Source: an uncultured Bryobacteraceae bacterium
GTDB taxonomy: Bacteria; Acidobacteriota; Terriglobia; Bryobacterales; Bryobacteraceae
Reading direction: 5' to 3'
Length of the DNA: 47,641 bases
Assembly (NCBI GenBank): GCA_938027685.1
Contig: CALJAM010000038.1
Coordinates: 1 to 47,641 of the forward strand
Shown in pieces: positions 3,866-46,791 of the stretch. Below the pieces are notes generated by a model. It searched no databases, was not told where the DNA came from, and saw only the letters and a program-made list of their open reading frames with translations. The position numbers and the translations under genes were made by a program. Each line of letters opens with the position of its first letter. The first letter of the stretch is position 1.

Positions 3866-5618
3866 GAGAGCACTGCCTCAGACAAATACGGCCGGATCCG
3901 CGCGGGCCGCGTTTCGGAGGGCAAACGCCGCCGCCACTCTTCATCGTTGAGCAGCTCCTGGGACGCGAACTCGTAGTAAGAGTACGCCGCTCCCTTGACA
4001 ATCTGGGTGCGCCCGTAGAAGGGCGTGACGTGGTCCCACTCGAGGGGCCGCCCCACTGCCGCCAACAGGTACGGAACCGCGTGGCGGCCGCCGCCGGCCA
4101 CGTCCGCGATCTTGGGCATGGGATCGGGCGTGGAAAGGGCCAGATCCTCGCGAGCCAGACTCTTGAAGACCAGAAAGTTGTGCTCGGCAATGCGCGGAAC
4201 CTTCGGCGGCCAGAATGCGCGCGGCCTCGGCGTCGCCGGCCGGATCGCCGCTGCGGACGGCCGCGAGCGAGCGAAACATTTTGGCCATTTTTGTTTCGAT
4301 CGGCAGCGCGGCGCGCGCCTCCCGCACCAGCTCCCAGAAAGCGGGAACGGCCTGCCGCCGCTCACGCAAAATGAACAAGCCCTGGAAGGCCGCGCCGTAC
4401 AGCTCCCAGAAGAGGTCGGTCGTCACCAGGAACGGCGGCCGGTGCATCGCGAAGGGCTGCTCCAGGCACGGGTAGCTTTCGGCCTCGTACGGCTGGTAGA
4501 GCTGATCGTAGGCGGTGGGCCTCAGCAGGCCGCCGTAACGTTCGAAGCGCTCCGCGTCGGCGGGATCCTCCAGAAACATCCAGGCATTGACTACGTCGGC
4601 GAGGGGATCTCGATCGGCGCGTAATCGAGCAGTAGGATCGAACCCTCGCGCGTTACGCCTACCAGGCCACGTCCGTCCGCCGTGACGGCGGGCGGGAGGA
4701 TGAATCGTCCGCCGGCGGCCTTGCGCACCGCGCTGCGCCCGGGTTGCATCAGCAACTCCGCACCGTCGGAATCCGGACGCCAGTGAAGCAGCCCGATGCC
4801 GTTGGGAGTAGGGATGAGCGATCCCCCGCACAGACCGCCCGGCAGCGGCTCGGTCTTCTCCCAGTGGTCCGTCGCGTATCTGGCGGCATGGAAGCAACCT
4901 TTGGCATCCTCCCAGAGCAGTAAGTGGCCCGTGGGATGAAAGGCTACGGGCAGGGCGGAGGCAGCCGCCAGTCCGCCGACCAGCCGCCAGTTCTGATCCT
5001 CCGGGACCGGGTCGGGCCTTTTACCCGGGCCGACGACCCAGTAACGGCGGCGGCCGTCCTCGGTAACGGATTCGACACGAAAACGCTTTTCATCAAGTTT
5101 GATCCCGAAGAACAACCGGTGCGCGTAGACGTCCCGGCCCCGCTCCTCGTCGCGTCCCACGAGGAACGGCCTGGGTCCCGCGAGTGAACGCTCGATCGGC
5201 CGCTTGTCGCGGTAGATTTGACGCGCGGTCCGGCCGGAGGTCTCGGGCGCCAGCCTCCAGATCACCCATTCAGCGCCCTGCCGGCCGGCCACGAACAGTT
5301 GCGTGCCTTGAGGATGCCAGGCGATCCGGCGCGCCAGGGCCCCTGCGGCGGGCGCGAGAGTTCACGCAGCCCAGCGTCGCCGATCTTCCACAGCGTCAAG
5401 ACCCCGGCCCCGGTCGAGTCCGTCAGCAACAGCGCGACTTCCGGACCATGCGGAGCCGCGGCTACGTCCAGCGGTTTGGTTGCAGAGGGCAGGGGCACGC
5501 GGGCCGCGTGCATCGGCGAAGGAGTCACCTTGACTTCAGGCAAGTCGAACAACGACGCGCCCACCCCGGGCCGAACCGCGAGCAGTAAGAGCGCCATAAA
5601 GCCCCTCATCCCGACCAC
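3841..5618 (-). pseudogene. Secreted propeller-like plus helical protein of unknown function, three frameshifts
   Basis: Three single-base corrections rebuild one reading frame of about 592 residues. One base is missing from the G/C run near 5340 (PPQG joins ALARRIAWHPQGTQLFVAG). One C is missing from the CCCC run near 4608 (DYAPIEIP joins LADVVNAWMFLED). One extra G lies near 4200 (ARILAAE joins VPRIAEHNFLVFKSLA). The product has a signal peptide (MRGFMALLLLAVRPG) and a beta-propeller-like N-half with WHPQG-type strands. A helical C-half contains FLVTTDLFWELYGAAF, loosely like DUF3160 proteins; I am not certain of that assignment. It overlaps the capA-like gene downstream by 25 nt. The function is unknown. 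Confidence 0.7.
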
Positions 5619-5699
5619 CCGCTCAAGTCTAGCTCAGTCGGAGCCCGGCGCAATCTTGAATTTCGCCCGTCTTTTCCAGCGGTGCGCGGTCCTTGGCTG

Positions 5700-5732
5700 T
5701 TACTGCTCAGTTTCTGCGATGAGCGACAGTAA
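5700..5732. repeat. Interrupted inverted repeat upstream of the broken secreted-protein gene
   Basis: TTACTG-CTCA (5700-5709) is complementary to TGAG-cga-CAGTAA (5720-5732), giving a 10-bp stem with a 3-nt bulge. It lies in the 168-bp gap between the URO-D-like gene and the start of the disrupted minus-strand pair. An operator or an RNA hairpin is possible. No protein gene is seen in this gap. Confidence 0.35.
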
Positions 5733-5786
5733 TTCAGGAAACTGCCTACCGTGGGGCGCCGGCGGCTGAATCGCTGCAACGGAAAT

Positions 5787-6809
5787 CTATCGCTGCCGGG
5801 CCGCACGGATCATAGCGCGCAGGTTTTCGGGCGGCGTGGTGGCGGGTATGGCGCAGCCGGCGTTGAGGATGAAGCGCGGCGTGTCCGCGAAAATGTCCAT
5901 CAGCTCCCGGGTCTTCTGCTCAACCAGCGAGGGCGTCCCCAGGGCAAGCACGCCGCTCGGATCGAGGTTGCCGACGAAGGTCGCTCGACTCGCCAGCACG
6001 TCGTGGGCGCGGCGGGCATCGGTCTTGTAGTCCAGCTCCAGCGCGTCGGCTCCGGTAGCGATCATGTCCTCCAGGATCGGTTCGGTCTTGCCGCAGATGT
6101 GCAGCATGTAGGGAAGCCCGAGCGCATGCGCCTGCTCGACCACACGTTTTTCGTAGGGCCAGGCGAATCGGCGGTAAAGCTGCGGCGAGATGACGCTGGG
6201 GCCGGCCGGGCTGTCGCCGTTCGAAACCATGTGCGCCCCGGTCTGCGCCATCAGGCGGATGAACTGTAGCGTGGCCTCGGCGGCATAATCGAGCAGGCGG
6301 CTCACGTCTTCCTCTCGGTCCGGGTCGACGAGATCCAGCATCCACTGAGAGGCGCCTCGCATCAGGCTGGCCAGCGAGAAGGGACACTGGTCGCAGTTGC
6401 CGCGCACAAAGATCTCGTCGCCGAAGTGGCGCTCGAGCAGGCGCACGGCCTCCAGCCACACCTGTACGCCCTCGTATCGGGCGACGTCGGGCGGCTCCAG
6501 TTCGCGCACGTCCTCCAGACGCTTCAGCCGCGCACCTCGACAGAGCGCGGGTTCGTCCTCGGGGAACTCGACGGGCACGCCCAGCGCGCCTGCCAGCGTA
6601 GCCGTATCTATGTCCACCACGATGCCGTCGTAACCGTATTTCTCGACGGCGAGAATGAACGAGCGCGCCACGGCCCCCGGGTCGCGTCGAAAGACGCTCA
6701 TCGTGACGCCGGCCTCACGTGCGGCCATCATGAAGTTGTGCAGCATCACGGGCGTTGCGTCAGGCCGCTCCCCGCGCAGCGCCGCTTGGATTCGCTGACA
6801 GCCGTTCAT
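5787..6809 (-). CDS. URO-D-superfamily protein, MtaA/CmuA-like (zinc methyltransferase motif)
   Basis: A 340-residue TIM-barrel protein of the uroporphyrinogen decarboxylase superfamily. It carries H237-I-C239 in LPYMLHICGKTEP and a late cysteine at 319 in ILNAGCAIP. This is the His-X-Cys-Xn-Cys zinc site of corrinoid-dependent methyltransferases such as MtaA and CmuA, which activates a thiol to accept a methyl group. True HemE enzymes lack this site. A methyltransfer role is therefore inferred. The substrate is unknown and no corrinoid protein is encoded nearby. It is divergent from a second superfamily member at 6880. A TACAAT box lies 12 nt before the ATG. The surrounding genes suggest catabolism, not haem synthesis. 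Confidence 0.85.
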   Translation of the reverse strand: MNGCQRIQAALRGERPDATPVMLHNFMMAAREAGVTMSVFRRDPGAVARSFILAVEKYGYDGIVVDIDTATLAGALGVPVEFPEDEPALCRGARLKRLEDVRELEPPDVARYEGVQVWLEAVRLLERHFGDEIFVRGNCDQCPFSLASLMRGASQWMLDLVDPDREEDVSRLLDYAAEATLQFIRLMAQTGAHMVSNGDSPAGPSVISPQLYRRFAWPYEKRVVEQAHALGLPYMLHICGKTEPILEDMIATGADALELDYKTDARRAHDVLASRATFVGNLDPSGVLALGTPSLVEQKTRELMDIFADTPRFILNAGCAIPATTPPENLRAMIRAARQR

Positions 6810-6821
6810 CGCCTGCGCGCC

Positions 6822-6827
6822 ATTGTA
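6822..6827 (-). promoter_or_regulatory. -10 box (TACAAT) for the MtaA-like gene
   Basis: The minus strand reads TACAAT with 12 nt to the ATG at 6809, giving a predicted leader of about 5 nt and no room for a Shine-Dalgarno sequence. Confidence 0.35.
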
Positions 6828-6867
6828 GCGCTTCGGCCGCGGCCCGGCCTCTTGCCGCAGGGTGACT

Positions 6868-6873
6868 TACAAT
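6868..6873 (+). promoter_or_regulatory. -10 box (TACAAT) for the second URO-D-like gene
   Basis: TACAAT is followed by exactly 6 nt and then GTG 6880, so transcription would be expected to begin at the start codon. This supports GTG 6880 over the upstream in-frame GTG at 6862, which would lie inside the promoter. Confidence 0.45.
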
Positions 6874-6879
6874 GTCGGC

Positions 6880-7941
6880 GTGACGCCGCGCGAGAAATGG
6901 CTGGCGCTGTTTCGGGGCAGCGGTTTTGCGGAGCCGGTCTGCGACTACTGGGCGACCCCGGAAGTGACCCGCCGCCTGCTGCGCGCACTGGACTGTTCCA
7001 CAGAGAGGGAGCTCTACCAAAAGCTGGGCATCGACAAGGGCGTCTTCCTAGCGCCGCGCCACCCGCGCGCCCGGGAAGATACCTGGCATACGGCTTCGCT
7101 GTTCAGCGTGTGGGGCATTCCGACGCGCCGCGTGCCCTACCTGGACGGCGCCGGTTACTACGAGGAGGCCGTGGATCCTCCGCTCGCATCCGCCACCGGC
7201 GTGCGTGAAGTCGAGCGCTACCCCTGGCCGGAGGCTTGCGAGTGGGAAACGGAAGAATTCCGTCGCGAGTGCCTGGCCTGGCGCGACTACCCCATCATCG
7301 GGGCCAATTACGAGCCGTTCTACCTTTACTGCCGGCTGCGGGGCATGCAGCAGGCCCTGGAAGACTTGCTGGCCAACCCCTCCATGGTGGATGCGGCCAT
7401 GGAGCGCATCTTTGAAATCCACGCGGGCATCGTGCGCAAGGCCATGGAGGCGGCAGGCGACCTGATCTGTTTCATTTGCGTGGCCGAGGATCTCGGCACG
7501 CAACAGGGTCCGTTGATGAGCCTGGCCTGCTTCCGGCGCTTCATAAAGCCCTGGCTCAAGAAGATGATCGATCTCGCGCACTGGCTCGGCACGTGGGTGT
7601 TCCATCACAACGACGGCGCCATACGCCCCTTGCTGCCGGAACTCGTCGAGATGGGCATTGACGTTCTCAACCCCGTGCAGTGGCGCTGCCCCGGAATGGA
7701 TCGCAGGCAGTTGGTAGGCGAGTTCGGAAGCGAGCTGGTCTTCCACGGCGCGGTGGACAACCAATTCACGCTTCCGTTCGGACGGCCGGAGGACGTCAAG
7801 CGGGAGGTCTGGGAGAACCTGGAGATTTTCAGTCGTGCCCGCGGCTACATCGTAGCGCCCTGCCACAACATCCAGGCGAACACGCCCACGGCCAACATCC
7901 TCGCCCTTTACGAGGCCGTGGCAGAATGGCGCGGCGTTTGA
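6880..7941 (+). CDS. URO-D-superfamily protein lacking the zinc cysteine
   Basis: A 353-residue member of the uroporphyrinogen decarboxylase superfamily that begins TPREKWLALFRG. Where the MtaA-like neighbour has HICG, this protein reads WVFHHNDGAIRPLL, and its C-terminal barrel segment is VAPCHNIQANTP. The first zinc cysteine is thus replaced and the two proteins are not simple duplicates. Close relatives in other bacteria occur in sugar or methyl-group catabolic clusters, but the reaction is unknown. GTG 6880 is preferred as the start because the frame's earlier GTG falls within the -10 box. The Gfo/Idh/MocA gene follows after 41 nt but has its own promoter. Confidence 0.8.
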   Translation: MTPREKWLALFRGSGFAEPVCDYWATPEVTRRLLRALDCSTERELYQKLGIDKGVFLAPRHPRAREDTWHTASLFSVWGIPTRRVPYLDGAGYYEEAVDPPLASATGVREVERYPWPEACEWETEEFRRECLAWRDYPIIGANYEPFYLYCRLRGMQQALEDLLANPSMVDAAMERIFEIHAGIVRKAMEAAGDLICFICVAEDLGTQQGPLMSLACFRRFIKPWLKKMIDLAHWLGTWVFHHNDGAIRPLLPELVEMGIDVLNPVQWRCPGMDRRQLVGEFGSELVFHGAVDNQFTLPFGRPEDVKREVWENLEIFSRARGYIVAPCHNIQANTPTANILALYEAVAEWRGV

Positions 7942-28757: not shown

Positions 28758-30230
28758 ATGATGTTGCATTCCCGCCGGCCGGCGTTCCACAGGTTCCTGG
28801 CGCTGCTGCTGGCCGAGCTGATGGCCCTGGTTCCTGCGGGTGCGGCCGCGCAGAAGACCCGCCCTCCGTCACCTCCGGAGCCTCGCGAGGTCTTCGAATC
28901 TCTGCGCACCGCTCTCGAGCGCCCGTATCTGGAGCTGTTCGACGCCGCACCCAAACTGGAGTACAACCCGGCCCAGATAGCGCGCATGCGGAAGTATCTG
29001 GACGAGGCGCAGCAGTATTGCGTCCGGGAGTTTCGTTTGCGCCTTGCCAACCATCAGAAAGATCGGCAACGCTTACAAGCGGATTTGAAGCGGCGGACGG
29101 CGAGTCTGGAGGATCCCGAGCGCCGCGATTTGCATTGCAAGATCCAGAACCTGCGCATCCTGGAGAGCCAGGCGCAGATGCTCGCCGAGCACGCCATTCC
29201 GGTGGCCTACGAGAACAAGAAAGCCAAGCTGGAGTTGATCGAAAAATGGCCGCAGGAACTCGAACGCATCAAACAGGAGATTGCTACCGGCGCCCACCAT
29301 CGGCGACGTTTCGGCGACGTAAAGGACATCGGCATCCGCGAACTGGTGCCGGGCCAGGAGCGCGACGTCAAGGATGGGCAGGAGGCCCTACGGCAACTGA
29401 AGATGACCGGCTTGTTGCCGCCGGAGCTGGACAACGCGGCCATCAAGAAGTATGTCAACGACCTGGCCCAGAAAATTGCCCGGCATTCCGACCTGCGTGT
29501 GCCGCTGAACCTGACGTTGCTCAACTCGAAAGAGATCAACGCCTTCGCGCTGCCGGGGGGATTCCTCTTCGTCCAGCGCGGCCTGTTGGAAGCCGTCGAA
29601 GACGAAGCGCAATTGGCCGGGGTCATTGCGCATGAGATCGCCCACGTCACCGGCCGTCACGGCAACAAGCTCATGAAGCGGGCCACGATCGCCTCCATCA
29701 TTTATCAGGCGGCTCAGGTGGCGGCCGTCATTCTTACCGGCGGCGCCGCTACGTTGGGCACCTACTACGCCCTGCAGTACGGGTTCTACGGGCTGGGACT
29801 CGTGCTCAGCCTCGATCTGCTCGGCGTGAGCCGGGAGTTCGAGCTGGAAGCCGACCAGCTCGGCGTGCAGTACGCCTGGAACGCGGGCTACGATCCTTCG
29901 GGCTTCATCCGCTTTTTCGACAAAATGGCCACGCGTGAAGGGTACGTGAACGGCGCGAGCTGGTTCCGCACCCATCCGCCGTTCTTCGCACGAATGGTGC
30001 AGACCAGGCGGGAGATGATGTTCCTGCCCGAAAAGCCCGGGCTCATCCGGGATAGCGAAGAGTTCCGGCGCATGAAGGAGGAACTGGCCAAGGTCACCGC
30101 GCAGGCCGCCGAGGAGGAGAAGAACAAGCCCAGCCTGCTCACGCCGGTTCAGGGCTGCCCGGCGCCTGAAAAGCCCGAGTACAAACCGGGCGATCCCATC
30201 GAAAAGATATGCCCATTGCCTTCTTCCTAA
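28758..30230 (+). CDS. Exported M48-family zinc metallopeptidase
   Basis: A 490-residue protein with a signal peptide (RFLALLLAELMALVPAGAAA). It continues with a helical, charged region (100-230), then the M48 catalytic core: VIAHEIAHVTGRHG (HEXXH near residue 291), a hydrophobic hairpin, and SREFELEADQLGVQYAW with the third ligand Glu. It resembles BepA/YfgC-type periplasmic proteases, but its N-half is replaced by a long helical part and no TPR is obvious. AGGAGG precedes two adjacent ATGs (28758, 28761). Its end overlaps the VWFA protein by 22 nt, suggesting coupled production. Confidence 0.88.
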   Translation: MMLHSRRPAFHRFLALLLAELMALVPAGAAAQKTRPPSPPEPREVFESLRTALERPYLELFDAAPKLEYNPAQIARMRKYLDEAQQYCVREFRLRLANHQKDRQRLQADLKRRTASLEDPERRDLHCKIQNLRILESQAQMLAEHAIPVAYENKKAKLELIEKWPQELERIKQEIATGAHHRRRFGDVKDIGIRELVPGQERDVKDGQEALRQLKMTGLLPPELDNAAIKKYVNDLAQKIARHSDLRVPLNLTLLNSKEINAFALPGGFLFVQRGLLEAVEDEAQLAGVIAHEIAHVTGRHGNKLMKRATIASIIYQAAQVAAVILTGGAATLGTYYALQYGFYGLGLVLSLDLLGVSREFELEADQLGVQYAWNAGYDPSGFIRFFDKMATREGYVNGASWFRTHPPFFARMVQTRREMMFLPEKPGLIRDSEEFRRMKEELAKVTAQAAEEEKNKPSLLTPVQGCPAPEKPEYKPGDPIEKICPLPSS

Positions 30231-31099
30231 GCCTTCTGCTTGCGGTGGTCGGCGCCTCGCAGCCCTCCACCATTTCGCTCTACCTCTCGGTCGAGGATGG
30301 CGATCGGCTCATCGGCGGACTGACCGAGAAGAACTTCCGTCTCTACGAGGACGGCCGGCCCGTCGCCTTTCGGCTGGAGCCACCTGAGACACCCATGCTG
30401 GTGACCCTGCTGGTCGAGCGCAGCCGATCTTCCTGGTTTTACCAGAACGATCTGGACGCCGCTGTTCATGCGTTTCTGGACGCCGCGCCGGAAGGACACT
30501 GGTATTCGCTGGCAACGTTCTCCCACGGGCTGGAAGTCTCGGTCGATTTTACGCGCCAGATCGGAGAATTGCGCGCCGCCTATTCGGAACTGGGCGCGCC
30601 CATGTGGCAGGACATTGATACGTACGACGCGATTTACGAGATCCTGGAAAAGCTCGAGTTATTGGGCGGCAGGCGCGTGCTGATCTTTATCGGCTCGGGT
30701 CTGGACACCCTGAGCGCGCGGACCTTGGCGGAGGTCGAGCGTAAGATCGAATCCGTGAACGTGACGGTGTTCGCCGCCGGCGCTGGATCGAGCCTGCGCG
30801 GGACGTACGAGCCGTATTTGGCAACCACCGCGCGAATGGACCTGCTGCAGGCAGAAGCGTTCCTGAATATGCTCGCGCGCAAGAGCGGCGGCCAGGCTTG
30901 GTTCCCTAAGTTCGAGACCGCTTACCGGGACATCGCGCGCGCCGTTTTCACGACGCTGGCCAACCAGTACCGCCTGGTCTACGAGACCACCTTGCCCCGC
31001 GACCGCAAGTTTCACCGCCTGCGCGTCGAGGCCTTTCAGATCACGGACGACAAGAGGCGCGATTTCCGCGTGCGCGTGCGCGAGGGCTGGCGGCGCTGA
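30209..31099 (+). CDS. Secreted VWFA-domain protein (Acidobacteria type)
   Basis: A 296-residue protein with a signal peptide (MPIAFFLSLLLAVVGA), then the typical N-terminal strand set LYLSVEDGDRLIGGLTEKNFRLYEDG, then a von Willebrand A-like domain. The usual metal-site DXSXS is replaced by VERSRSS, so metal binding is doubtful. The family's late segment FTTLANQYRLVYETT is present. Its start lies within the end of the M48 peptidase gene. Such proteins are numerous in Acidobacteriota, but their job is unknown; an adaptor or substrate for the peptidase is possible. Confidence 0.85.
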   Translation: MPIAFFLSLLLAVVGASQPSTISLYLSVEDGDRLIGGLTEKNFRLYEDGRPVAFRLEPPETPMLVTLLVERSRSSWFYQNDLDAAVHAFLDAAPEGHWYSLATFSHGLEVSVDFTRQIGELRAAYSELGAPMWQDIDTYDAIYEILEKLELLGGRRVLIFIGSGLDTLSARTLAEVERKIESVNVTVFAAGAGSSLRGTYEPYLATTARMDLLQAEAFLNMLARKSGGQAWFPKFETAYRDIARAVFTTLANQYRLVYETTLPRDRKFHRLRVEAFQITDDKRRDFRVRVREGWRR

Positions 31100-31108
31100 G
31101 GCACCCGA

Positions 31109-34100
31109 TCAGCGCGGCGTGAACGAGAAATAGGACAGGCCCACCTGATCGTCGCCGGGGATGTAAAAACCGAAGGCGCCTTCGGTAAAGTCGCGTCCGG
31201 GCTCACCGGCGACCTGGGAGAGGGTAATCCATTCCTCGCCCTTGCGCACACGGTGCACTATGGCGGAAGGCCTCACTTCGACCTGCACGGAGCAATATCG
31301 CCACTCGCCCAGGTCGTGCGCCACGCGCGGACGCTCGTTGCGGCGACCGTTGCGCACTACCGTGTGGTAGAGCGAGCGGCCGTCGAGCTCGAACAGGTCG
31401 TAGTTACGTTCGTCGCTGTAATTGAGCACCCAGCGCAGACGCCGGCCCTTGCGCAACATGGCGGTGAAAACAATGCGCCCGTCGAGCTTGGGTATCTGCG
31501 CCAGCACGAAGTTGCCGCCCCGGCGGAAGAACCAGCCGGCCTCTTCCACCCAGCCGGCGCCTAGGAGCGCGATCCCGGACGCGGGGGGCGGAGCGGGCCT
31601 GGAAGCGGCCTTGAGCGGAGCCAGCTCGATCTTGACCACCCGAGTCTGCCCGGCGAGGATCTGCACCGTCTGAGAGCTCTCGGCGTGATCCGGCGCTCGC
31701 GCGATCAGCACGTAGGCGCCTTCGGGCAGCTCGGCGGTCGTTGCCGCCAGCGGCTTAGGGGCCTCGCCCGGCCGGCCTATGAGAAGCTGAGCGTCGCGCG
31801 GGCTGAGCGCGACCTGCAAGCGCCCGGTGAGCGGCTGGAGCGCCACTTCCGCACCGCTGAGCTGCACGGTCTGCCCGGCGGCAAAATGCCGGCGGATCAC
31901 TCTGGGCGCGAACCGCTCGCGACGGATCTCGATCTGGTGTTCGCCCTCGCCGATGCCGGAGTGGTGAAAGCTGCCGTCATCCTGAACGACCCCCACCGAC
32001 TGACCGTCGAGCAGCACCTGAGCCCCCGCCGGTCCTCCCTGAATCACCAGCGCAGCCGCGCGCGGCAGCGGACGGAGACGAAACTCGATCTTCGATTCCT
32101 CGCCCTTGCGGATCGCTACGCGCTGCTCGGGCGCCTCTTCGAATCCCTCTTTGGCTACGCGGACAGCGTACTCGCGCACCGGCAGGTTGGGGATGCGCAG
32201 TTGTCCGCGTGTAGTTGTCCGGCGCTGCTCACGACCGTTGAGGAACACGCGCACGCCGTCTTCGCCGGTCAATACCACCAGCGTTCCGACGTCGCGGTCC
32301 GAGCGCAGGTAAGCCGTTAGCAGCGGGGCGGACGAAATCTCGACGATCATCTTCCGGCGGTTGCTCTCGGCGCCGATCGTGAGCTCATAAGTTCCTGGCG
32401 TCAGATTGGAGAGCTCCAGGCCGCCGGGGCCGACCTGCCCGACGGGTTCGCCGTTCAGCTCGACCGGCGCGGGCCCGAAGCTGGCGTGGATGCGTGCACG
32501 GCTGCCCATGCCGGCGACCACCACCGCCGCGAGGTTGCGCGTCACAGGATCCGCAGCGAGCGGAGCCGCGCCCGGGGCGGCCTCGAAAGCGATCGTGGCT
32601 TCGCCGTCACGGCTGACTACCCTCAGCGTGTGTTTTCCCGGGCTCAGTCCGTCCAGACTGAACTGCCCTTCGAGCAGTTCTCGCGCCGGCTCCTCATCCA
32701 AGGCCACCTTGCCCTGGTCCAGGTCCGTGATCAACCGCAGGCCCACACCCATCGGCTCGAGCGTCAATTGCACGGGCGCCACGGGCCCCGCCGTAAACTC
32801 CAGCTTTGTGAAGGCGGGCCGGTAGCCCTCGAGGCGGGCCTCGATCTGGTAGGAGCCGGGCGCCAAGCCGAGGGTGAGATCAGAAAGGCCGCGCGCCTCG
32901 CCGTTGACGAAAATCGTGGCGCCGGGAGGCGTCGTGCGGATGTCCACGGTAAGGGCACCTGCAGGCGCTACAGCGGTCCGGCGGCTGAGCATGATCACGC
33001 CGGCCACGATCGCCGCGACCGCAACAAGGCCACCTGCACCCGCGAGCAGCCACATCCGGCTGATGCGGCGGCCGGCCAGTGGTGTTGCAGGAGGCTTGGT
33101 GACGGGCGGGGGCGCAGGGACGGGGCGCTCGAGAGCGGATGCAGGCGGCACCGCGGACAGTGGAGGGCTGACCGCGGACGGCGCGGGCTGCGGACTCACA
33201 GGCCCGGCCGGAACGGCAGCAGGACCCGGGCTCGCAAACTCGGGCGGCTCGCCTGTCCCGACGGCGGGCGCCACATACAGACCGGACCCGCCCGGAAAGG
33301 GCTCGCTCGGCGACGGCGTGGGTGACGCCTGCGGGACGACCGGCGGCGAGGGAGCCGGCGCCGCAGCTCGTCCCGCCCCCAACAGCGCCGACCGCCTCTC
33401 GATATCGGCCACCACCGACTGGATTTCAGGATCCAGCAGGTAGGCCGCCGCCAGTTGGCGAGCTTTCTGGAGGTGGCTTTCGACCGTCGCGGGATCGGTC
33501 TGCAAGGCGGCCTCGCGCTCCAACCGCCTGAGCTCTTCCAGCGTGGCACGACGCGCGCTGCGCCGTTGAGCCTCACGCGCCTGCTCGAGCTCACGGCTCA
33601 GGATGTCGCGCAACTGCGTCAGCCTGGGCTCGCCCGGCCATGCAAGTAGGGCCTGCTCGGCCTGCGCCAGGGCGCCTTCCAGGTTGCCCGCGGCCCGCAA
33701 GTCGCGCGCGGCCAGGAAAGCCTGCGCGACGGCTTCGTCACGCTTGCGATCCTGCGTGAGCGTGCGCAGACTGCGGGCGGCGGGATTTTGCGGATCCAGA
33801 TCGAGCGCCTCCGCCACCAGCGTTTCGGCCGACCGCCAGTCGCGATCCACCAGCTCGCGGGCGTGCCCGATCAGGGCTTCGACCAGTGCGGCGCGCGCCT
33901 GATGGTTGCGGGGATCGCTCTCGACCGCGCGGCGCAGCACGGACACGGCTTCGGCGAAGTTCCCTTGCGCGTGGAACGCCAGTCCCTCCTCGAGCAGGCG
34001 CTGCGCCTCGGCGATGCGCGCGGCCGACTGCCGCGCAACCTCCGCCAGACTGACGATCTCGGAGTCGCCGGGAAACTCGGCCTGGGCCGTTTCCAGCATC

Positions 34101-36148
34101 TGCAGCGCCGCGCCGTGATCGCCGGCGGCCAGGGCACGGTCGACCTGCTCAATCAACCTGGCCTTGGCTTCCGAGCGCGACTGCTGCTCGCGCCGTTTCT
34201 TCACCCGCTCGATTTCAAAGCTCAGGCCGGGATAGTGAGGATAAATGGCGCCCAGCGTCTCCCATTGGGTGAGCGCCTCGGCGAACTGGCCGCGTTCCTC
34301 GAGCTGGCGCGCCTTGGTCGCAATCGAGTTGACCAGATCGCGCTTGTCGCGCGTCAACCGCAGCGCGCGTTCGAAATGCGGCTCGCCGGGATACGCCGCG
34401 ACGGCCTCCTCGAGGATCGCCACGCGACGGTCCAGATCGGCCTCGGCTTCCACGCGCCGGTCGATCTCGGCGATCCGTGCCGAGATCTCCTGCCGCTGCG
34501 CCTCCTCGATGTCGAACTTGAGCGCCTGAAACAAAGCGTGTCCCGGATGTTTTTTGAGGCACTCCTCACAGATGGCCAGGGCCTGGGCGAAGTTGCGGGC
34601 GGCCAGGTGCTGGCGCGCCTCGGCATAGGCGTTCTTGAGGAGCTCGTGCTCGGTGCGCACCTGGTTGTAGAGACTGCGGTAGGCGGCCGAGCGTTCGGGC
34701 GCGCTGGTATCCGGCGCCCGCTCCTCGAGGCTCAGAACCTGCTCGAGCTTGCTGAGCGCCGCGCTGACCTCACCCTCGCGCCACGCCTCCACCGCCGCCT
34801 GGTAAAGCTGCTCCTTCTGCTGACGCACGCGCAGGTGTTCCTGCTCGAGCCTGTCGACCTCGGCCAGCAACTGCTGCGCGCGGGTATCGCCCGGCTTGAG
34901 CGCCAGCACGTTGCGGAGCGCCTCGCGCGCGTGTGCGTAGGCATGGTTCTCCATATGCTGGTGCGCCAGCCGGAACCAGTCCTCGATCTTCTGCGACACC
35001 ATCCGGGTCTCGATGTCCTTCTTCAGACCCAGGGCGGTCGCGTTCGAGGGATCCAGTTGCAGGACCTCCTGAATCTTCTGCAGGGCCAGCGGATATTCTT
35101 CGTGCTCGAAGCGCGTGCGGGCGCTTTCCAACAATTGGGCGATGGTGCGCTGGCGGGCGGCCTGGTCCAGCCGCCGACGCAGGTCGGTCAAGGCCGGGTC
35201 CAGATGGCCTTCGGCCTCCAACTCGGTGAGGATTTCGTTGGCGAATTGCAGATCGCCCTGTTCGAAGGCCCGCTGGGCGCGCTCGATGCGCGGCCGGATG
35301 CGGCCGGGATCGAAGAACTCGATGGGCTCATTGCGCAGGGCTTTCTGGAGGGTCTCGGCGAACTCGCGAGCGCTGGCGAAACGGTGCCAGGGCTGCTTCG
35401 CCATCGCCTTGTGGATCACGCGGCTGATGGCCTCGCTGACGGCGGGGTTGATGGCCGAAACCGGCGGGGGCACCTGGTGCAGGATGGCGTCGATGATCTC
35501 GGCCTCGGTAGCGCGATCGAAGGGCCGGCGCAGCGTGAGCGCCTCGTAGCAGACCACGGCCAGGGAGAACAGATCGCTCAGCGGCGTGGGCGGCTTGAGC
35601 TCCAGCTGCTCGGGCGACATGTACAGCAGCGTCCCCTTGATGCCCATGGAGGCGCGCGTATCGATCATGTGGGCCACGCCGAAGTCGATGAGCTTGACCG
35701 AGTCGTCCTCGAGCACGAAGAGATTGCTCGGCTTGATGTCGCGGTGCACCAAGCCGCGCTCGTGCGCTGCCTGCAGGCCGCGGCAGGCCTGCGTCATGAT
35801 CTCGACCACGCGCTCCACGGTGAGCCGCTGACTGGCGGTGCGGATCAGTTTGTCCAGCGTCACGCCGGGCAGCAGCGGCATCACGAAATAGGGCTTGCTC
35901 TGCCCCTCTTCCTGGTACTCCCCGATATCGAAGATCTCGACGATGTTGGGGTGACTCATGGCGGCCAGCACCTGGCACTCGCGCTGGAAAAGCTCGAGCG
36001 AGGCGCGGCTGGGCGCGTCGCGCAGCGTCTTCAGCGCGACCTCCCGCTTGACCACCAGGTCGTAGGCACGGTAGACGATTCCCATGCCTCCCCGGCCCAG
36101 GATTTCGCGGATTTCATAACGGTTGTTGAGTCGCTTTGGAACTGCCAT
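31109..36148 (-). CDS. Giant membrane Ser/Thr kinase with TPR-like, PEGA and concanavalin-like parts
   Basis: A 1679-residue Hanks-type kinase. The kinase domain (11-275) has GRGGMG, Lys40, Glu57, HRDIKPSN (135-142), DFG (155-157) and MSPEQ, so it is expected to be active. A long helical TPR-like region (about 285-915) follows, then a Pro/Ala linker (925-1023) and a single transmembrane helix (RMWLLAGAGGLVAVAAIVAG, about 1030-1056). Six PEGA-like beta repeats (about 1066-1520) come next. The C-terminus (about 1526-1679, WFFRRGGNFVLAQIPKLDG) resembles a concanavalin/LamG-like sandwich. The kinase and TPR parts would be cytoplasmic and the rest periplasmic. The 233 bp upstream hold only a weak promoter-like TAAATA. 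Confidence 0.9.
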   Translation of the reverse strand: MAVPKRLNNRYEIREILGRGGMGIVYRAYDLVVKREVALKTLRDAPSRASLELFQRECQVLAAMSHPNIVEIFDIGEYQEEGQSKPYFVMPLLPGVTLDKLIRTASQRLTVERVVEIMTQACRGLQAAHERGLVHRDIKPSNLFVLEDDSVKLIDFGVAHMIDTRASMGIKGTLLYMSPEQLELKPPTPLSDLFSLAVVCYEALTLRRPFDRATEAEIIDAILHQVPPPVSAINPAVSEAISRVIHKAMAKQPWHRFASAREFAETLQKALRNEPIEFFDPGRIRPRIERAQRAFEQGDLQFANEILTELEAEGHLDPALTDLRRRLDQAARQRTIAQLLESARTRFEHEEYPLALQKIQEVLQLDPSNATALGLKKDIETRMVSQKIEDWFRLAHQHMENHAYAHAREALRNVLALKPGDTRAQQLLAEVDRLEQEHLRVRQQKEQLYQAAVEAWREGEVSAALSKLEQVLSLEERAPDTSAPERSAAYRSLYNQVRTEHELLKNAYAEARQHLAARNFAQALAICEECLKKHPGHALFQALKFDIEEAQRQEISARIAEIDRRVEAEADLDRRVAILEEAVAAYPGEPHFERALRLTRDKRDLVNSIATKARQLEERGQFAEALTQWETLGAIYPHYPGLSFEIERVKKRREQQSRSEAKARLIEQVDRALAAGDHGAALQMLETAQAEFPGDSEIVSLAEVARQSAARIAEAQRLLEEGLAFHAQGNFAEAVSVLRRAVESDPRNHQARAALVEALIGHARELVDRDWRSAETLVAEALDLDPQNPAARSLRTLTQDRKRDEAVAQAFLAARDLRAAGNLEGALAQAEQALLAWPGEPRLTQLRDILSRELEQAREAQRRSARRATLEELRRLEREAALQTDPATVESHLQKARQLAAAYLLDPEIQSVVADIERRSALLGAGRAAAPAPSPPVVPQASPTPSPSEPFPGGSGLYVAPAVGTGEPPEFASPGPAAVPAGPVSPQPAPSAVSPPLSAVPPASALERPVPAPPPVTKPPATPLAGRRISRMWLLAGAGGLVAVAAIVAGVIMLSRRTAVAPAGALTVDIRTTPPGATIFVNGEARGLSDLTLGLAPGSYQIEARLEGYRPAFTKLEFTAGPVAPVQLTLEPMGVGLRLITDLDQGKVALDEEPARELLEGQFSLDGLSPGKHTLRVVSRDGEATIAFEAAPGAAPLAADPVTRNLAAVVVAGMGSRARIHASFGPAPVELNGEPVGQVGPGGLELSNLTPGTYELTIGAESNRRKMIVEISSAPLLTAYLRSDRDVGTLVVLTGEDGVRVFLNGREQRRTTTRGQLRIPNLPVREYAVRVAKEGFEEAPEQRVAIRKGEESKIEFRLRPLPRAAALVIQGGPAGAQVLLDGQSVGVVQDDGSFHHSGIGEGEHQIEIRRERFAPRVIRRHFAAGQTVQLSGAEVALQPLTGRLQVALSPRDAQLLIGRPGEAPKPLAATTAELPEGAYVLIARAPDHAESSQTVQILAGQTRVVKIELAPLKAASRPAPPPASGIALLGAGWVEEAGWFFRRGGNFVLAQIPKLDGRIVFTAMLRKGRRLRWVLNYSDERNYDLFELDGRSLYHTVVRNGRRNERPRVAHDLGEWRYCSVQVEVRPSAIVHRVRKGEEWITLSQVAGEPGRDFTEGAFGFYIPGDDQVGLSYFSFTPR

Positions 36149-36381
36149 GCCCTCGCTTAAGCCCCCCCGGGCGACGCTTATTTACGGCAGAATCGCGGGC
36201 CCCGCCCGTGCAGGTTTGCTTTCGAAGAGTAACACATTTCCGCGGCCTTGTGAATCCGTCGTCCGGGCGCCGGACCGATCTTCATCTTCTAAAGCCGGAA
36301 GCGCTGTGGAGTCGGAGCGGGACGGCCGCTGCGGTCACGCAGGGGACGGAAACCCGGGCCGCGCCCTCGTGCTGCCGTACA

Positions 36382-39300
36382 TCAGCCAGGGACTCTATCG
36401 TGCTCCTCCTTTCTCCGCCCGCCGTATCGTTCGACGGCAGCGATCAACTCCGCAGCGCGAATCGGCTTTGCGATGTAATCGTCGGCGCCGGCCGCCAGGC
36501 AACGGTCCCGGTCCTCCTTCATTGCATAAGCGGTCATGGCGACGATGGGAATATGGCCTCCTCCCCAGCGCGCTTCCGCGGCCCGGATGGCCGAGATGGC
36601 CTCCAGGCCGTCCATCCCGGGCATCTCTATATCCATCAAGACCACGTCGAAGCTTTCGCGATTCAGCAAAGCCAGCGCCTCGCGGCCATCGGCCGCCGCA
36701 GCGACCTGATGCCCGCGCCGCTCGAGGATTCGGGTGGTCAGCATTTGGTTCACCGCGTTGTCGTCCGCCACCAGCACACGCAGTCTACTCTGCGCCGGCG
36801 GGGCGGAGTCCCGCACCGGAAGGTCGGCGCCTGACATACGGGTGATTCGACCGGCTAGGGCGGACAAGACGGCGTCGAGCAATTCCGATTCCTTGAGAGG
36901 CTTCAACAAGACGGCCTCCACCGGCGGTTGCCCGTCGGAACGCAGACCTGCGGAAGTGTATAGGATGATGGGCAAACCGTTCCCGCCCGGCAACTCCCGG
37001 ATTCTCCGGGCGAGCTCGCAACCGTCGATACCCGGCATCTGGCCATCGAGGATCGCCAGGGCGAACTCCTCTACACCGTTTTCACCCAGCCGCTCAAGCG
37101 CCTCCGCGCCGCTCGAGACGGCCAGCGGTCTCATGCCCCAGCGTGTCAGCGTCTCCGTAAGAACCAGGCGGTTGGTGGCGTTGTCGTCCACCACCAGCAC
37201 ACGCAAACCTTCCAGACGCAGGTCAAGTTTCGCCGATTCCCGCCGGGTCGCCTCGGGGTCGTATCCGAAGCGGACCGTGAAGTGGAATGCGCTGCCCGGG
37301 CCGCCGGCAGTACGATCGGGTTCCCGCCAGGGACTCTCGACCCAGATGCGTCCACCCATCAACTGAACCAATCGCGTGCAGATGGCCAGCCCCAGCCCGG
37401 TCCCGCCGAACCGTCGCGTGGTGGAACTGTCGGCCTGCCGGAAGGCCTCGAAAATGATCCCCTGCTTTTCTACGGGAACCCCGGGTCCGGTATCCGTCAC
37501 GGCAAAGTGCAGGATCACGGAGTCGCCTTCGAAAGACTCCACCCAGACGCGCAGTCCGACCTCGCCTTCTTCGGTGAACTTGATGCCGTTGGCGGCCAGG
37601 TTGATCACCACCTGCCGCAAGCGCAGGCTGTCGCCCACCAGCAGGTCGGGCACTTCCGGAGCCACGCGGCAGGTCAACTCGAGCCGCTTTTCGCCGGCCC
37701 GGGCCGCCAGGGAGCGCAAAGCGTCACCCAGCATATCGCGCAGTCGGAAAGGGGCCGGATTCAGCTCGAGCTTGCCCGCTTCGATCTTGGAAAGATCCAG
37801 GATGTCGTTCAAGATGCCCAGCAACGAGTAAGCCGAGTCGCGCACGATGCCGAGGTAGCGGGCCTGCTCGGCGGTCAGCTCAGTTTGCAGGACGAGTTCC
37901 GTCATCCCGATGATGCCATTCATGGGGGTGCGGATCTCGTGGCTCATGCTGGCCAGGAAGACGCTCTTGGCGCGATTGGCGGCCTCGGCCTGATCTCGCG
38001 CTTGGGCGAGCTCGGCGATGAGCTTGCCGCGCCGCCGGTACTCGCCGATCGCGAAACCAAGCAGCAGCGCGATAAAGGCCGCACTGAACCCGGCGAAAAC
38101 GGCGAAGCCCGTGTGGCGGTACCAGGGCACCAGGACCGTGAATTGGATGGCAGCGGGGGTTGGATCCACGTTGCCGTTGCGGTCCATGGCGCGGACTTCC
38201 ACGCGGTGTACGCCGGCCGGCAGCTTGCCCAGGCTCGCGTTCGGGCGTTCCAGGAACGGCGTCCATTCGCCGCCATCGACCCGATAGGAGAACAGAAGTC
38301 GCTCCGCGGCGGTCGACCGCCACTTGTCCACACCGGCGAACGTGAGCCGCACGTCGGCGCCCGGCGCTACCTCGCGCGGGTTTTCAGCCTCGGCGCTCAG
38401 GGTTTCCGGCGGCCAGGGATCGGCTTCCGGATGAAAAAGCGCCAAGCCTCGCGTCGTGCCAACCCAGATCCGCCCGCGACTGTCTTCGAAGACCTCTGCA
38501 ACCGGATCCGCGGGAAGGCCGTCCTCGCGAGTGTTGGTGATCCATGCATCGGAACGGAGGCGGTGGATCCCGGTTCCGGAGGCAATCCAGATCGTGCCGT
38601 CGCGCGCACGGATCATGCTGCGCACGCGGTCCAGTCCCGTACGCACGGTTCGCCAGCGGCGGCCGTCGTATTCGATAAGGTCTTCCCGACCACCGAGCAA
38701 CAAGACTCCCGGTCGCGCCGCCAGCATGGAAAAGGTGCCTGCCGCGTAGTAGCCGTCTTCCGGGCGGAACACGTGCGCGTGGCCCCCTCGGAGGACCGCT
38801 AAACCGGCGGCCCCGCCGATCCAAACCTCCCCTTCCTTCACCTCCAGCAGGCAACGGATGTCGCTCAGCTCGCTCGCGACCGGCAACCGGTACAGTGGCT
38901 GAAAGCGCGAGCCGTCGTAGATCTCCAGCCACCGCTCCGAGTCGTCGGAGGTGCGCGTGACCACCCACGCGCCGCCCTGCCGGCGCGGAGCGATCGCCAC
39001 CATCGAACGTCCGGCCGGGTGAACCAGCGGCGTGAAGCGGCGTCTGCGCGCATCGAACACGAGCAGGTGGGACTGGGTGTTCGCGCGTATCAGGAGTCGG
39101 TCGCCGGGCAAGGCGGCCAGAGAGTCCGTCTGATAGTAATAAGTCGTCTCACCCTCGGGCATAGGGAAGAACTCCCACCGGTCACCTTCCAGCAGACCCA
39201 GCGAGCGGGTGCAGGCGAACCACACTCGTCCCTGCGGGTCTTCGGTGATGGCGTGGACCGGAACGTCAAGCTGGGCAGCGGCGGGTGGCTTCCTCCAAAT

Positions 39301-40272
39301 CGGCGGTGCGTAACGCACCAGACCTTGCGTGGTTCCGAGCCAGAAGGCGCCGCCCGCGTCGGCAGCCTGATCGAGGATGATGCCGGAGAGAATTTCGGGC
39401 TCCTCGACACGCTGAACGCGAGCGCGGGATGTCCTCAGGAGGCGGCCGCCTTCCAGAATCCAGACCGTGCCCCCCTCGCCCGCCCAAGCGACCAGGTCGG
39501 TGGTGTGGCTGGAATATACGGGCTGCCATCGACCGGTCTCGAGTAGGAAGGCCGTTTTACGGAAAGAATCGTCCCGGGCTTCTCCCACCACGTAGAGAGT
39601 TCCTCGCGGGCCTGGACGGGGATGCCGGAAACGCACATGCCCGGTCGGGCCCGCGTCGTATTCCTCCCATAGGAAGGACTCTCCCGACTGGGGCAACAAG
39701 CGAACGACCCCGCGCTCCGTCGTGAGCCAGATCCAACCCTCCGGAGCTGCCGCCGGCTCCCGGAAACGGCCCACTCCGGTCTCGACGGCGGTACGCAGGA
39801 CCAGCGTCCTTCGCTGTGCGGCACGGAACTCAACGAGAAGCTCCGGCAGGAGGACTGCCAAGCGATCGGCGTCAAGGGCCACGCATCGGGCCAGTTGCCG
39901 CTCCTGCGGACCGGCTTGTTGCAAAGCTTCCAGGGGATGCTCGGTCCAGCGCCCATCCCGGTACTCGTGCAAGCCGGCGCCACCCAGGACCCAGACGGTG
40001 TTCCCGGATGCACCGCAGAGCCGGAAGTTGGGCCCGGGTATCGGTAGAGAGTGCACGCGGTAACCGTCGAGCAAGCTGAAGGTATTCACATGCCCGTGGC
40101 GGGCGAGGACCCAGCCCGATACGCCCAGGTGGATTTCCGGGGTGTAGGATTCCCGCAGGCCGTCGGAAACCTGCCAGGATCGCCACTCGGGCGGCTGGCC
40201 CGCGCCTGCAAGCCGCCACATGAGCAGCGCCAGTACGGCCCCGCGCACACCCCAAGGCATCGCGACACACAT
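36382..40272 (-). CDS. Hybrid sensor histidine kinase with beta-propeller sensor and two receiver domains
   Basis: A 1296-residue membrane sensor. A signal peptide ([19 protein letters not shown]) precedes two-component-regulator propeller blades (e.g. [28 protein letters not shown]). A Y_Y_Y-like beta domain (about 642-714), a transmembrane helix, HisKA with His778 in [11 protein letters not shown], and HATPase ([18 protein letters not shown]) follow. Two receiver domains come last, with Asp1076 and Asp1214. No DNA-binding or HPt part is present, so phosphate must pass to an unlinked partner. Propeller sensors usually bind carbohydrates. ATG 40272 is preferred because the frame's earlier start at 40338 is in the divergent promoter. 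Confidence 0.9.
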
Positions 40273-40333
40273 CTTTCGGACTCTCTCATCGGCCGCGCCG
40301 CTGACCGGCTTCAGCCTTTTTGCGCGGGCCGGG

Positions 40334-40339
40334 TACACT
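40334..40339 (+). promoter_or_regulatory. -10 box (TACACT) of the TIGR00300-queF-methyltransferase unit
   Basis: TACACT lies 19 nt before ATG 40359, giving a leader of roughly 12 nt. It is in the 86-bp region divergent to the histidine kinase. Confidence 0.35.
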
Positions 40340-43511: not shown

Positions 43512-46500
43512 ATGGCTGGCCCGCATTGGACGATCTTCCCTCTGGCATTGCTCAGCCTGTTCGCGCACGCGCAGAATATCACCGGCACGATTCTCGGGAC
43601 GGTCACCGATTCCAGCGGCGCGGTGGTCGCCAACGCCACCGTGACCGTAGTGAATGAACAGACGGGAACGGAAGTGAAGGCCGCCACTTCGCCCACGGGC
43701 GAATACGCGGCCCCGAACCTGCTCCCCGCTACGTACACCGTCAGGGGTGAGCTGGCCGGCTTCAAGCCCAGCGTGACGCGGGGGGTGCGCTTGCTCGCCA
43801 ACCGATCCGTCCGTGTGGACATCGTGCTGGAACCCGGCACCGTGACCCAGACCATCGAGGTGCAGGCCCGCGCTCCGGTAGTCAATTCCGAAAGCGCCAC
43901 CATCGGCAACATCCCGGAGTCAGGGGTCATCGCTAACATCCCGCTGAACGGACGCACGCTGGACCGGCTCATTCGGATCTCGGCCGGGGTCACCACGGAC
44001 AGCGCCGCCAACCCGCGGGTGGCAGGCAGCGCATACTGGGGAGGCATCCAGTTCAACGTGGACGGGGCCATGTACAACGACACTGGCAATGGAGGCGGCG
44101 CGTATTCCTACCGCAACGGCCTCGCCACGCTGCCTTCCGTGGACGCCATCAGCGAATTCAAGATGGATTCGAACAACCAAAAGGCCGAGTTCGAGGGCTC
44201 GGTCGCGGTCACGGTAGTGACAAAGTCCGGCACCAACGAGCTGCACGGCTCCATGCTTTGGTTCAACCGCAACAAGGAGTTCGCCGCCCGTTACTACTTC
44301 ACGCACCCGCCGACGCCCAAGCCGCCATACAACCGCAACGAGTTCGGCTATACGGTGGGCGGGCCGATGCTCGTGCCCGGTTACGACGGACGCAACAAGA
44401 CGTTTTTCTTCCACAGTTACGAGGGCCTGCGCGAGCGCACGGCTCCGAATTACGTGACCAGCGTCGCTACGCAAGCCATGCGAGAGGGGGATTTCACCGG
44501 ACTGCCGACCATTCTGGATCCTTTGGCAGGTGCGCCCTTCCCGGGCAATCGGGTGCCTGCCGCCCGCATTGATTCGCGCGCCAAAACCCTGATCGGCTAC
44601 GTCCCGCTGCCCAACACCGCCGGTCTGGGGCCGGCGGGCACTCTCTCCAATTACCGCTGGACGATCGCGAATATTTCCGATATCAACCGCTACGGGTTAC
44701 GCATCGATCATCGCTTCAGCGCGAAAGACAGTATCTGGGTGAACCTCAACTACTCGAAGGGTTACCCTTACTTTGCAGCGGTCGGTTATCCCCCGAAATA
44801 CGGCAACTGGGCGAACGGCGGCTATAGCACGCAAAGCGCGAATCTGACCTGGAACCACGCCTTTTCGCCCGCTACGCTGAACGAGGCGCGCTACGTCTAC
44901 TTCCGTCACGCCTCGGTGCGACAGGGCCTGAACCGGGACTTCGACCCCCGCAGCCTATTCCCGACGCTCTATCCGGTGGCCTACGGGGGCTTGCCGAACA
45001 TGAACATCAGCAATCACATCGCAATCGGGGACTACGGCGGCGGCGATCCCGGCACACAACTTACGCCGCAATTCATCGACAACCTCACGATGGTCCGCGG
45101 CAAACATACCGTCAAGATGGGCGCCGACATTGCGCGGCACAAGGTCCTGTCGCCGCCCTTCGTGGCGGGCATGGGCGCTGGGCTGGCCAACAACGCCGCT
45201 CTCGGCCGCTTCGATTTCAACGGGCGCTACACTCTCGACGAGAAGACCAAGAGCGCCCAGCCCGCCCACGCCTTCGCCGACTTCCTGCTCGGTTACCCCC
45301 TGCGCGCTTATCGCTCGACCACTAGCCCCAACCTCCTCTTTCTCGGCCCGCGCACGAGCTTCTATATCCAGGACGACTGGCAGGTGACTCCGCGTCTGAC
45401 GCTGAATTTCGGCCTGCGGTACATGTACCAGACCCCCTGGTACGAGCAGAACAACACCATCTCGAACTTCGACTTCAATACCGGTCGGCCCGTCATTCAA
45501 AGCGAGCGCATGCCTTCGCAAGCCCAGGAGAGGCTGGTCAGGGCCTATCCCATAGTCCTGGCCGGCGAAGCCGGTTTGCCCGTGCGAGATATCGAGCCCG
45601 ACCGCAACAACATCGGTCCGCGTCTCGGCGTAGCCTGGAGGCCTTTCGGCAATACTCGCACCGTTTTCCGGGGCGGTTTCGGCGTCTATTACAACTTCCT
45701 GCCCGTGTACATCGGCTTCCGCCAGCGGGGCTTCAACAATCCCCCCTTCCTGCTGGCGGAATCTTTCGAGGCGGACGCGAGCTACAGACCTTCCATCACG
45801 TCGGCGGCGCCTTTCCCGGGCGGCGGCGCGATTTCGCCGAACCCAAGCCTGACAGCCGTGCAAAAAAAATATCCGGAATAGCGAAAGCTATCAGTGGAAT
45901 CTTACCGTGGAGCGCGAGTTGCGGCGTAACCTCGGCTTTCGCGTATCCTACGTGGGCAACCACAGCACGCATCTGCCTTGGTATAACTACTCCATCAATC
46001 TCTCGCGCCAACAGATCCCCGGCGCCATCCAGCCTAACAGGCCGTACCAACCCTGGTCCGACACCCTCCTGCTGGCCGGCGGCGGTAACTCCATCTTGCA
46101 TCAGTTGCAGATCGAAGCCATCCAACGTTACTCGAGCGGCCTCAGCTTTCAGCTCGAGTACTCGTGGAACCGCTCTTTGGATGACGTTCCGGTGGTGGGC
46201 GGTCCGCAGGATCCTTACAATGCGCGCGGCGACCGCGGCAATTCCGATCAGATCCGCCGGCACATCCTCACTTTCGCGGGCACCTACGAGTTACCCTTCG
46301 GACCCGGCAGGCCGTGGCTGAACAGCTCGCACGCACTCGCCAGACATCTGGCCGGGGGCTGGCAGGCGGCCGGCATTATCTACTTGCGGACGGGCACCCC
46401 GTTCTCGCCCAGTTTCACCGCCACTTTGGCCGGCTGGCGCGGCGGGCGACCGGACCGGGTCAAGGACGCACCGTTGTACCCCGAGAAGAAAACCATGTAT

Positions 46501-46791
46501 CAGTGGTTCAATCCGGCGGCCTTCTCGGTGCCCGCACCCTATAGTTACGGTAATGCCTCGCGAAATCTGCTCTTCACGCCCGGCGACATCGTCATCGACC
46601 TCAGCGCGCTCAAGGACTTCTCCCTGACCGAGCGCCTCAAATGGCAGTTCCGCGCCGAATTCTTCAACGCGCCGAATCACTTCAACTGGGGAGGCCCCGC
46701 GGCGAACATCTGCGTGCCCGCCAGCGTGGGCCGCATCACCTCGGGGGGCGAAGCGCGCATCGTTCAGTTCGGACTGAAACTGCTGTGGTGA
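43512..46791 (+). pseudogene. TonB-dependent (Oar-like) receptor split by one extra A in an A8 tract
   Basis: The ATG at 43512 opens a signal peptide (HWTIFPLALLSLFAHA), a carboxypeptidase-regulatory-like domain (GTILGTVTDSSGAVVANATV), a plug (NIPLNGRTLDRLIRI) and the first half of the barrel. The frame ends at TAG 45879. The other frame continues the same barrel directly: NIRNSESYQWNLTVERELRR, then NHSTHLPWYNYSINLS, through to a C-terminal strand ending QFGLKLLW. Removing one A from the eight at 45862-45869 gives a single frame of about 1092 residues, the normal size. No other lesion is seen. It could be a fresh pseudogene, a phase-variable or slippage-expressed gene, or a homopolymer error. 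A sulfatase follows. Confidence 0.85.
45862..45869 (+). other. A8 homopolymer at the TonB-receptor frame break
   Basis: Eight consecutive A within an otherwise GC-rich gene. Seven would keep the frame. Homopolymers of this length are prone to replication slippage and to RNA-polymerase slippage, either of which could switch or partly restore the product. Confidence 0.8.

Follow-up and report, generated by a model that had tools for sequence, protein, structure and literature searches.

The window analysed here, a stretch of 47,641 nucleotides from an uncultured Bryobacteraceae bacterium, encodes a single-pass receptor and scaffold kinase of Terriglobia, for which PpkA-like licensing of the assembly of a type VI secretion system (T6SS), a contact-dependent injection weapon, is the most likely role, with roughly even chances of being correct. 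What is new is the association of the T6SS with a family of transmembrane Hanks kinases that have an unusual ectodomain. The T6SS role of the window copy is taken from family evidence, and the T6SS genes of its own genome lie on other contigs. No published description of the architecture was found among titles and abstract openings on PEGA, TPR, Hanks-kinase and T6SS topics, nor was an account of a T6SS kinase of Acidobacteriota found in titles and abstract openings, where subscription journals mostly lie outside the search. An earlier sequence-only reading of the window had called the combination of domains possibly undescribed; within these titles and abstract openings that holds, although the architecture is common to a Terriglobia family. 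For many species it is still debated what triggers the T6SS, and a kinase family with a rod-like ectodomain and a lectin-like tip, whose genes repeatedly adjoin VgrG, offers a concrete candidate sensor.

The kinase gene (31109..36148, minus strand) starts with ATG and encodes 1679 residues, and relatives share the domain order of its product. It belongs to a genome of 3.93 Mb in 45 contigs, which is 96.7% complete and of which the window is contig C38. The sequence-only reading had placed a 1679-residue kinase here, which is confirmed by the frame on the minus strand, a Pkinase domain at residues 11–258 and intact motifs. This domain (35375..36118, minus strand; Pfam PF00069, E 8.6e-46) is of the Hanks Ser/Thr type, with a glycine loop (GRGGMG at 18), the VAxK lysine (VALK at 37), HRD (HRDIKPSN at 135) and DFG (at 155) all present, and the key residues of these motifs do not vary across a 19-row alignment of relatives. 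Residues 285–924 (33377..35296, minus strand) form a TPR-like helical array, recognized by Pfam families (TPR_19, TPR_14 and TPR_2 exceed the cut-off) and by TPR-like helix pairs in an AlphaFold model of residues 1–988 (mean pLDDT 74.3), in line with the cytoplasmic array proposed earlier. In the same model the C-lobe of the kinase is badly built, much of 159–261 having a pLDDT below 50, and the VIA-align matches listed for the model fall on the kinase part and hardly cover the TPR part. An antisense ORF (33788–36160) overlapping the kinase gene is judged to be a high-GC artefact. A promoter and terminator scan upstream of the kinase gene found neither.

A proline-rich linker at residues about 930–1030 (33059..33361, minus strand), seen in the sequence, in low pLDDT over 926–988 (988 being the end of the model) and in its dN/dS given below, leads to the membrane helix at residues 1032–1055 (32984..33055, minus strand). 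This helix, modelled by AlphaFold at pLDDT 54–71, coincides with the only place in the protein where Kyte-Doolittle hydropathy rises above 1.6 (to 2.44), so that the single membrane helix proposed from the sequence is present both in the structure prediction and in hydropathy. The strongest hydropathy peak likewise precedes the PEGA part in 17 of 18 relatives; the sequence of L009 is cut within the helix, and a second, weaker peak is found in L013, L015 and L017.

The AlphaFold model of residues 1030–1679 (mean pLDDT 86.4, pTM 0.49) continues from this helix into beta modules and a terminal sandwich. The ectodomain stalk (residues 1066–1512; 31613..32953, minus strand), delimited from this model and Pfam, is divided by our reading of the model strands into six modules of about 70–80 residues each. 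Pfam detects PEGA in the protein (E 4.8e-28), and the PF08308 cut-off of 20.8 bits is exceeded by modules 1, 4 and 5 (48.1, 30.2 and 23.3 bits); scores are weak for modules 3 and 6 (12.8 and 13.6 bits), and the Pfam scan detects no PEGA in module 2. The six PEGA-like repeats of the sequence-only reading are thus kept as six beta modules, of which three are PEGA domains by Pfam.

The C-terminal part (residues 1525–1679; 31112..31576, minus strand) is predicted to be a concanavalin-like beta-sandwich. By VIA-align of the model it shares its fold with the carbohydrate-binding module CBM66 (4azz; Z 14.2, rmsd 2.9, 147 residues) and with galectin-9 (2d6o; Z 13.4, rmsd 2.4, 132 residues), galectins reaching Z about 13, at 6–17% identity among the matches listed. 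No family is assigned to this tail, since CBM66 and galectin-9 are tied within one Z unit. The tail sequence has no credible match in Pfam or among PDB structures; in a Pfam search with the tail family six families each matched one of 18 members, with E up to 1, and a Foldseek search of the whole model gave low TM-scores only and was set aside. The lectin-like tail proposed earlier therefore survives as a predicted fold, and neither fold nor sequence searches matched it to an intracellular domain. A shared fold alone proves no sugar binding: of the proposed polysaccharide receptor, the receptor-type kinase with one membrane helix, the long ectodomain stalk and the lectin-like fold are supported, and the reading of a polysaccharide surface is at most a possible role. 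Outer-membrane beta-barrel proteins are encoded in the window, which makes a diderm host cell probable; the tail would then sit on the periplasmic side, or beyond it should the stalk pass through the outer membrane.

Over its full length the protein has its nearest named relative in the congener L006, a Bryobacteraceae genome. Against it dN/dS is 0.054 for the kinase, 0.112 for the TPR array, 0.284 for the linker (taken over 956–1034), 0.068 for the PEGA region and 0.087 for the tail, values that are rough because dS exceeds 1 in every part except the kinase. This comparison indicates that the domains are under purifying selection and that the 1679-residue protein is real and maintained. An artefact or chimera is ruled out by relatives with the same domain order together with the low dN/dS of the folded domains, and a protein unique to this genome is ruled out by the same architecture in scattered Terriglobia (Acidobacteriota).

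Scanning 84,980 species genomes for the pattern yielded 23 loci. The first 21 of them (L006–L026) are from Acidobacteriota, and 15 of these are complete frames of 1555–1732 residues from the match with the same domain order. The remaining two, from Myxococcaceae (L027) and Spirochaetales (L028), match weakly and only in part. The tail is absent from some members, such as L012 (1292 residues from the match). Querying with the TPR stalk brings up clear relatives in 12 of the 200 genomes sampled from the class, where the limit was E under 1e-80 and 56 more genomes with weaker TPR matches were not counted as family; in 4 of 297 genomes of a phylum sample, all in the same class; and in 23 of 121 related genomes, the three samples sharing genomes. 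In G062 (L052:6418-7833, 3084-7043) and in L020, sequencing error or decay has divided the kinase gene between frames.

The first sign of the T6SS was the presence of VgrG, a Clp ATPase and TssG among the annotated neighbours of relatives. Searches with T6SS proteins, those of G213 among them, place the kinase gene in or beside a T6SS locus in 12 of the 44 rows of a kinase tree: L010, L012, L016, L019, L024, L042 (G039), L052 (G062), L053 (G213), L080 (G518), L081 (G545), L082 (G541) and L086 (G501), the last through a TssK gene that the contig end truncates. The kinase lies downstream of VgrG in nine of them (L010, L016, L019, L024, L052, L053, L080, L081 and L082), with other ORFs in between in L024. 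The cluster of G213 has the order second TssK, FT-array protein, TssK-L-M-B-C, Hcp-Hcp, ImpE, TssA-E-F-G, Clp ATPase, VgrG and kinase, in which "ClpV" is our label for a Clp-type ATPase identified by position. A PAAR gene lies between VgrG and the kinase on the opposite strand in L010 and L082; a 126-residue ORF in this interval, which has no Pfam match, was rejected because its antisense frame is PAAR in these two loci. Only VgrG-like and gp5-like genes adjoin the kinase in L054 and L055, 24 rows have no T6SS gene within the flanking DNA examined, and six have little flank or are outgroup. Among the rows scored as unlinked, L013, L021 and L025 have scant flanking sequence on one side or none; L039 (G106) was scored so despite a second-type TssB/TssC match about 16 kb off, and L020 despite weak Clp matches upstream. 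The tree, with L056 (31% identical) as outgroup, omits L009, which has no kinase part on its contig, L027, L028, the window genome's own paralogues L002–L004, G013, G044, G080, kinase-less forms and same-genome duplicates. The T6SS association of the relatives is the most informative evidence, and it is invisible from the window sequence alone.

The linked label changes at least seven times on the tree, counted by starred branches, and is spread over several branches with weak clustering (51 of 500 shuffles as low); linkage therefore comes and goes and is not the mark of one clade. The family has the T6SS gene-cluster context of a PpkA-type kinase. The window copy has not: its own branch (WIN, L006, L007 and L040) contains no linked row, and T6SS queries match nowhere in the window. 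This unlinked branch and the 24 rows that have no T6SS gene in the DNA examined would suit a general envelope-sensing kinase, which would sense peptidoglycan, a glycan of the outer membrane or stress through its tip or PEGA stalk, control envelope genes, and have the T6SS as one client in some lineages and not in the genus of the window. The recurrence of linkage in several branches speaks against such a general sensor, which we regard as possible though rather unlikely.

Co-occurrence with TssC (PF05943), the T6SS sheath gene, bears on the same choice. TssC is present in 20 of 23 stalk-bearing relatives and in 34 of 98 stalk-less ones (one-sided Fisher p 5e-6), the exceptions among the former being G013, G044 and G513, where it was not found. 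When the six linked genomes are removed, 14 of 17 stalk-bearing relatives still have it against 34 of 98 (p 3e-4), which disfavours the general envelope sensor. The 23 include two kinase-less forms, G506 and G513, and two genomes, G013 and G044, for which no kinase domain was seen; when these four are moved, a post hoc split by kinase domain seen gives TssC in 19 of 19 versus 35 of 102. The congener G001, in which the contig ends within the copy, was counted as stalk-less. Among the 200 genomes of the class, 48 of which have TssC, the association is weaker (7 of 12 stalk-bearing versus 41 of 188; p 0.009), and at least four of the five stalk-bearing genomes in which TssC was not found carry the kinase (G160, G073, G059 and G085), a point for the envelope sensor. 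The kinase search alone had picked out 21 Terriglobia genomes, some of which recur in the other samples; 19 of the 21 have TssC, those of L015 and L020 being the misses; the Myxococcaceae genome of L027 also has it, making 20 of 22 kinase-found genomes in all. Family f1 gives, among the matches listed, TssC in 18 of 19 versus 32 of 51 (p 0.006). Phylogeny confounds this co-occurrence: none of the p values allows for kinship. Genomes also recur between the samples.

In the window genome the T6SS genes are scattered over several contigs, among other genes, so that an unlinked kinase is not odd. TssK-L-M lie on C12; TssB-C-Hcp-ImpE-TssA-E-F-G, a Clp ATPase and VgrG on C34; a second TssB/TssC-type gene on C32; and on C35 a second TssK adjoins a 489-residue protein in which six FT[RQ][ML]F motifs occur and a hydrophobic C-terminal helix is discernible by eye. 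The C38 kinase could be one more scattered T6SS piece, or unrelated. Directly downstream of TssM is a gene for a different kinase, with an FGE-sulfatase domain (L100:16677-18569, on C12 of the window genome, G000), which could be the T6SS kinase of this genome and which also favours the general envelope sensor. The T6SS reading is accordingly weakened by the unlinked branch of the window, by the FGE-sulfatase kinase beside TssM, by the carriers without TssC and by kinship among the genomes. The search for FHA proteins in the window genome yielded a single one, an FHA-SpoIIE phosphatase (L106:6801-8408, on C10), and a canonical PpkA-Fha pathway was rejected on this ground; no T6SS-linked Fha was found in the genome, which is 96.7% complete and in which a diverged Fha could escape.

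Among known systems the nearest to the licensing kinase preferred here is PpkA of the Proteobacteria, the kinase of the T6SS threonine-phosphorylation pathway. In the available portions of the reports on Pseudomonas, Serratia, Agrobacterium and Acidovorax, PpkA has an N-terminal Hanks kinase, one membrane segment and a periplasmic domain, a layout found also in the window kinase, whose ectodomain is presumably periplasmic, and T6SS gene context is shared with many relatives of the latter. As far as the accessible text of these sources goes, PpkA acts upstream of Fha and binds and recruits T6SS parts including membrane-complex and baseplate proteins (PMC12607579), and its periplasmic domains, which vary between species, receive input (PMC6082577). 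The periplasmic fragment of Serratia PpkA given in the latter source, 363–482, has about 120 residues versus about 620 here. Unlike PpkA, the window kinase has a TPR array, PEGA modules and a lectin-like tip, and no T6SS-type Fha was found in its genome. PknS of Xanthomonas citri, in the part of its report available, is likewise a transmembrane Hanks kinase; it has a regulatory periplasmic domain, is needed for T6SS expression and works through the sigma factor EcfK (PMC13147305). The receptor layout is common also to the PASTA kinases PknB, PrkC and Stk1, and PknB is the nearest solved structure to the kinase domain by sequence (E 1.3e-49). The window protein, at 1679 residues, differs from them in that the Pfam scan finds no PASTA family in it and in that NCBIfam PknB_PASTA_kin matches its kinase part only, at 269.4 bits versus a cut-off of 450, which places it outside the PASTA kinases. 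Of the PEGA-domain kinases, the Myxococcaceae locus L027 has kinase-like and PEGA-like parts in one frame, as here, and differs in being a 33% identical match in a frame of 732 residues from the match, where stalk and ectodomain queries find no match.

For the window kinase as a licensing factor the following sequence of events is proposed. Six modules of about 3.5 nm each, by our estimate, would make a rod across most of the periplasm, whose length would let the tip touch peptidoglycan, a glycan of the outer membrane or some partner in the periplasm. A change at the tip may dimerise or reposition the kinase, which would then phosphorylate T6SS proteins docked on the cytoplasmic TPR array. The ligand, the substrates and the topology are the parts of this model that we infer.

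The stalk also occurs apart from the kinase. Six loci encode an ectodomain without a detectable kinase domain, as stalk proteins mostly with the tail (L049:3176-6112, L047:5155-7731, L048:5955-7940, L051:3186-5180, L095:9067-11892 and L096:1660-4281). The protein of L049 occupies the slot of the kinase after VgrG, and in the T6SS cluster of G012 a kinase-less form following VgrG takes the place of the kinase. Close to its start L095 retains a few residues that look like a Gly loop (GQGGM). These six loci, together with the position of the form in G012, might be expected of a scaffold or tether, in which the TPR array holds baseplate parts, the stalk and tip anchor them to the cell wall, and the kinase is secondary and losable; PpkA itself binds and recruits T6SS components, according to the available text of its report (PMC12607579). 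A losable kinase agrees poorly with the lowest dN/dS of all the domains against L006 (0.054) and with catalytic residues invariant in the 19 aligned rows, and we consider the tether improbable.

A candidate substrate of the licensing kinase is found in the T6SS clusters themselves. Tail-anchored proteins with FT[RKQ][ML]F motifs are encoded beside TssK genes (L072:1480-2775, L074:16682-18235, L113:8920-10389 and L116:5791-7278, all on the minus strand). They have a proline-rich array of these motifs and an N-terminus that by eye resembles a kinase N-lobe, with no Pfam match (L072, L113 and L116) and no NCBIfam match (L072 and L074). With the N-terminal 100 residues of one relative as query, a match is found in 34 of the 121 relatives, 32 of which have TssC. 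The motifs themselves are seen in G213, G062, G541, G545 and G518 (two motifs only), and also in G000, G001, G002 and G007; motif-bearing copies lie within contiguous T6SS clusters in G213, G062, G541, G518 (two motifs) and G007, and the copy of G545 is at a contig end. By position and motif the FT-array protein is a candidate substrate of the kinase, and since this candidate array lies in the same clusters, the idea is testable in a cultured relative. A more specific form of the licensing model, that the lectin-capped rod reads an outer-envelope glycan and that the kinase phosphorylates the threonines of FT[RKQ][ML]F on this tail-anchored scaffold next to TssK, is distinctly unlikely to hold in all its parts; if true, it would constitute an Fha-independent phosphorylation switch for the T6SS.

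Upstream of the window kinase and on the same strand, with 233 intergenic bases between the two genes, is a gene for a hybrid histidine kinase that combines Reg_prop repeats with HisKA, HATPase and two receiver stretches (36382..40338, minus strand). Its position, together with a homologue also upstream of the kinase in L006, might suggest a local regulator in which the two proteins are paired and both sense oligosaccharides; among the loci compared this neighbour occurs near the kinase only in L006, and we think such a pairing very unlikely. On the other side are a convergent gene with a weak VWA match below the cut-off (30209..31099, plus strand) and an M48 peptidase gene (28758..30230, plus strand), both beside the kinase only in L006 and L009. 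A conserved operon with the histidine kinase, VWA and M48 genes was rejected, these neighbours being kept in L006, and the last two also in L009, only. Elsewhere in the window two adjacent ORFs (43512-45881 and 45907-46791) match positions 1-528 and 540-838 of PF25183 in succession, and they appear to be one outer-membrane beta-barrel gene that was split in assembly or is broken.
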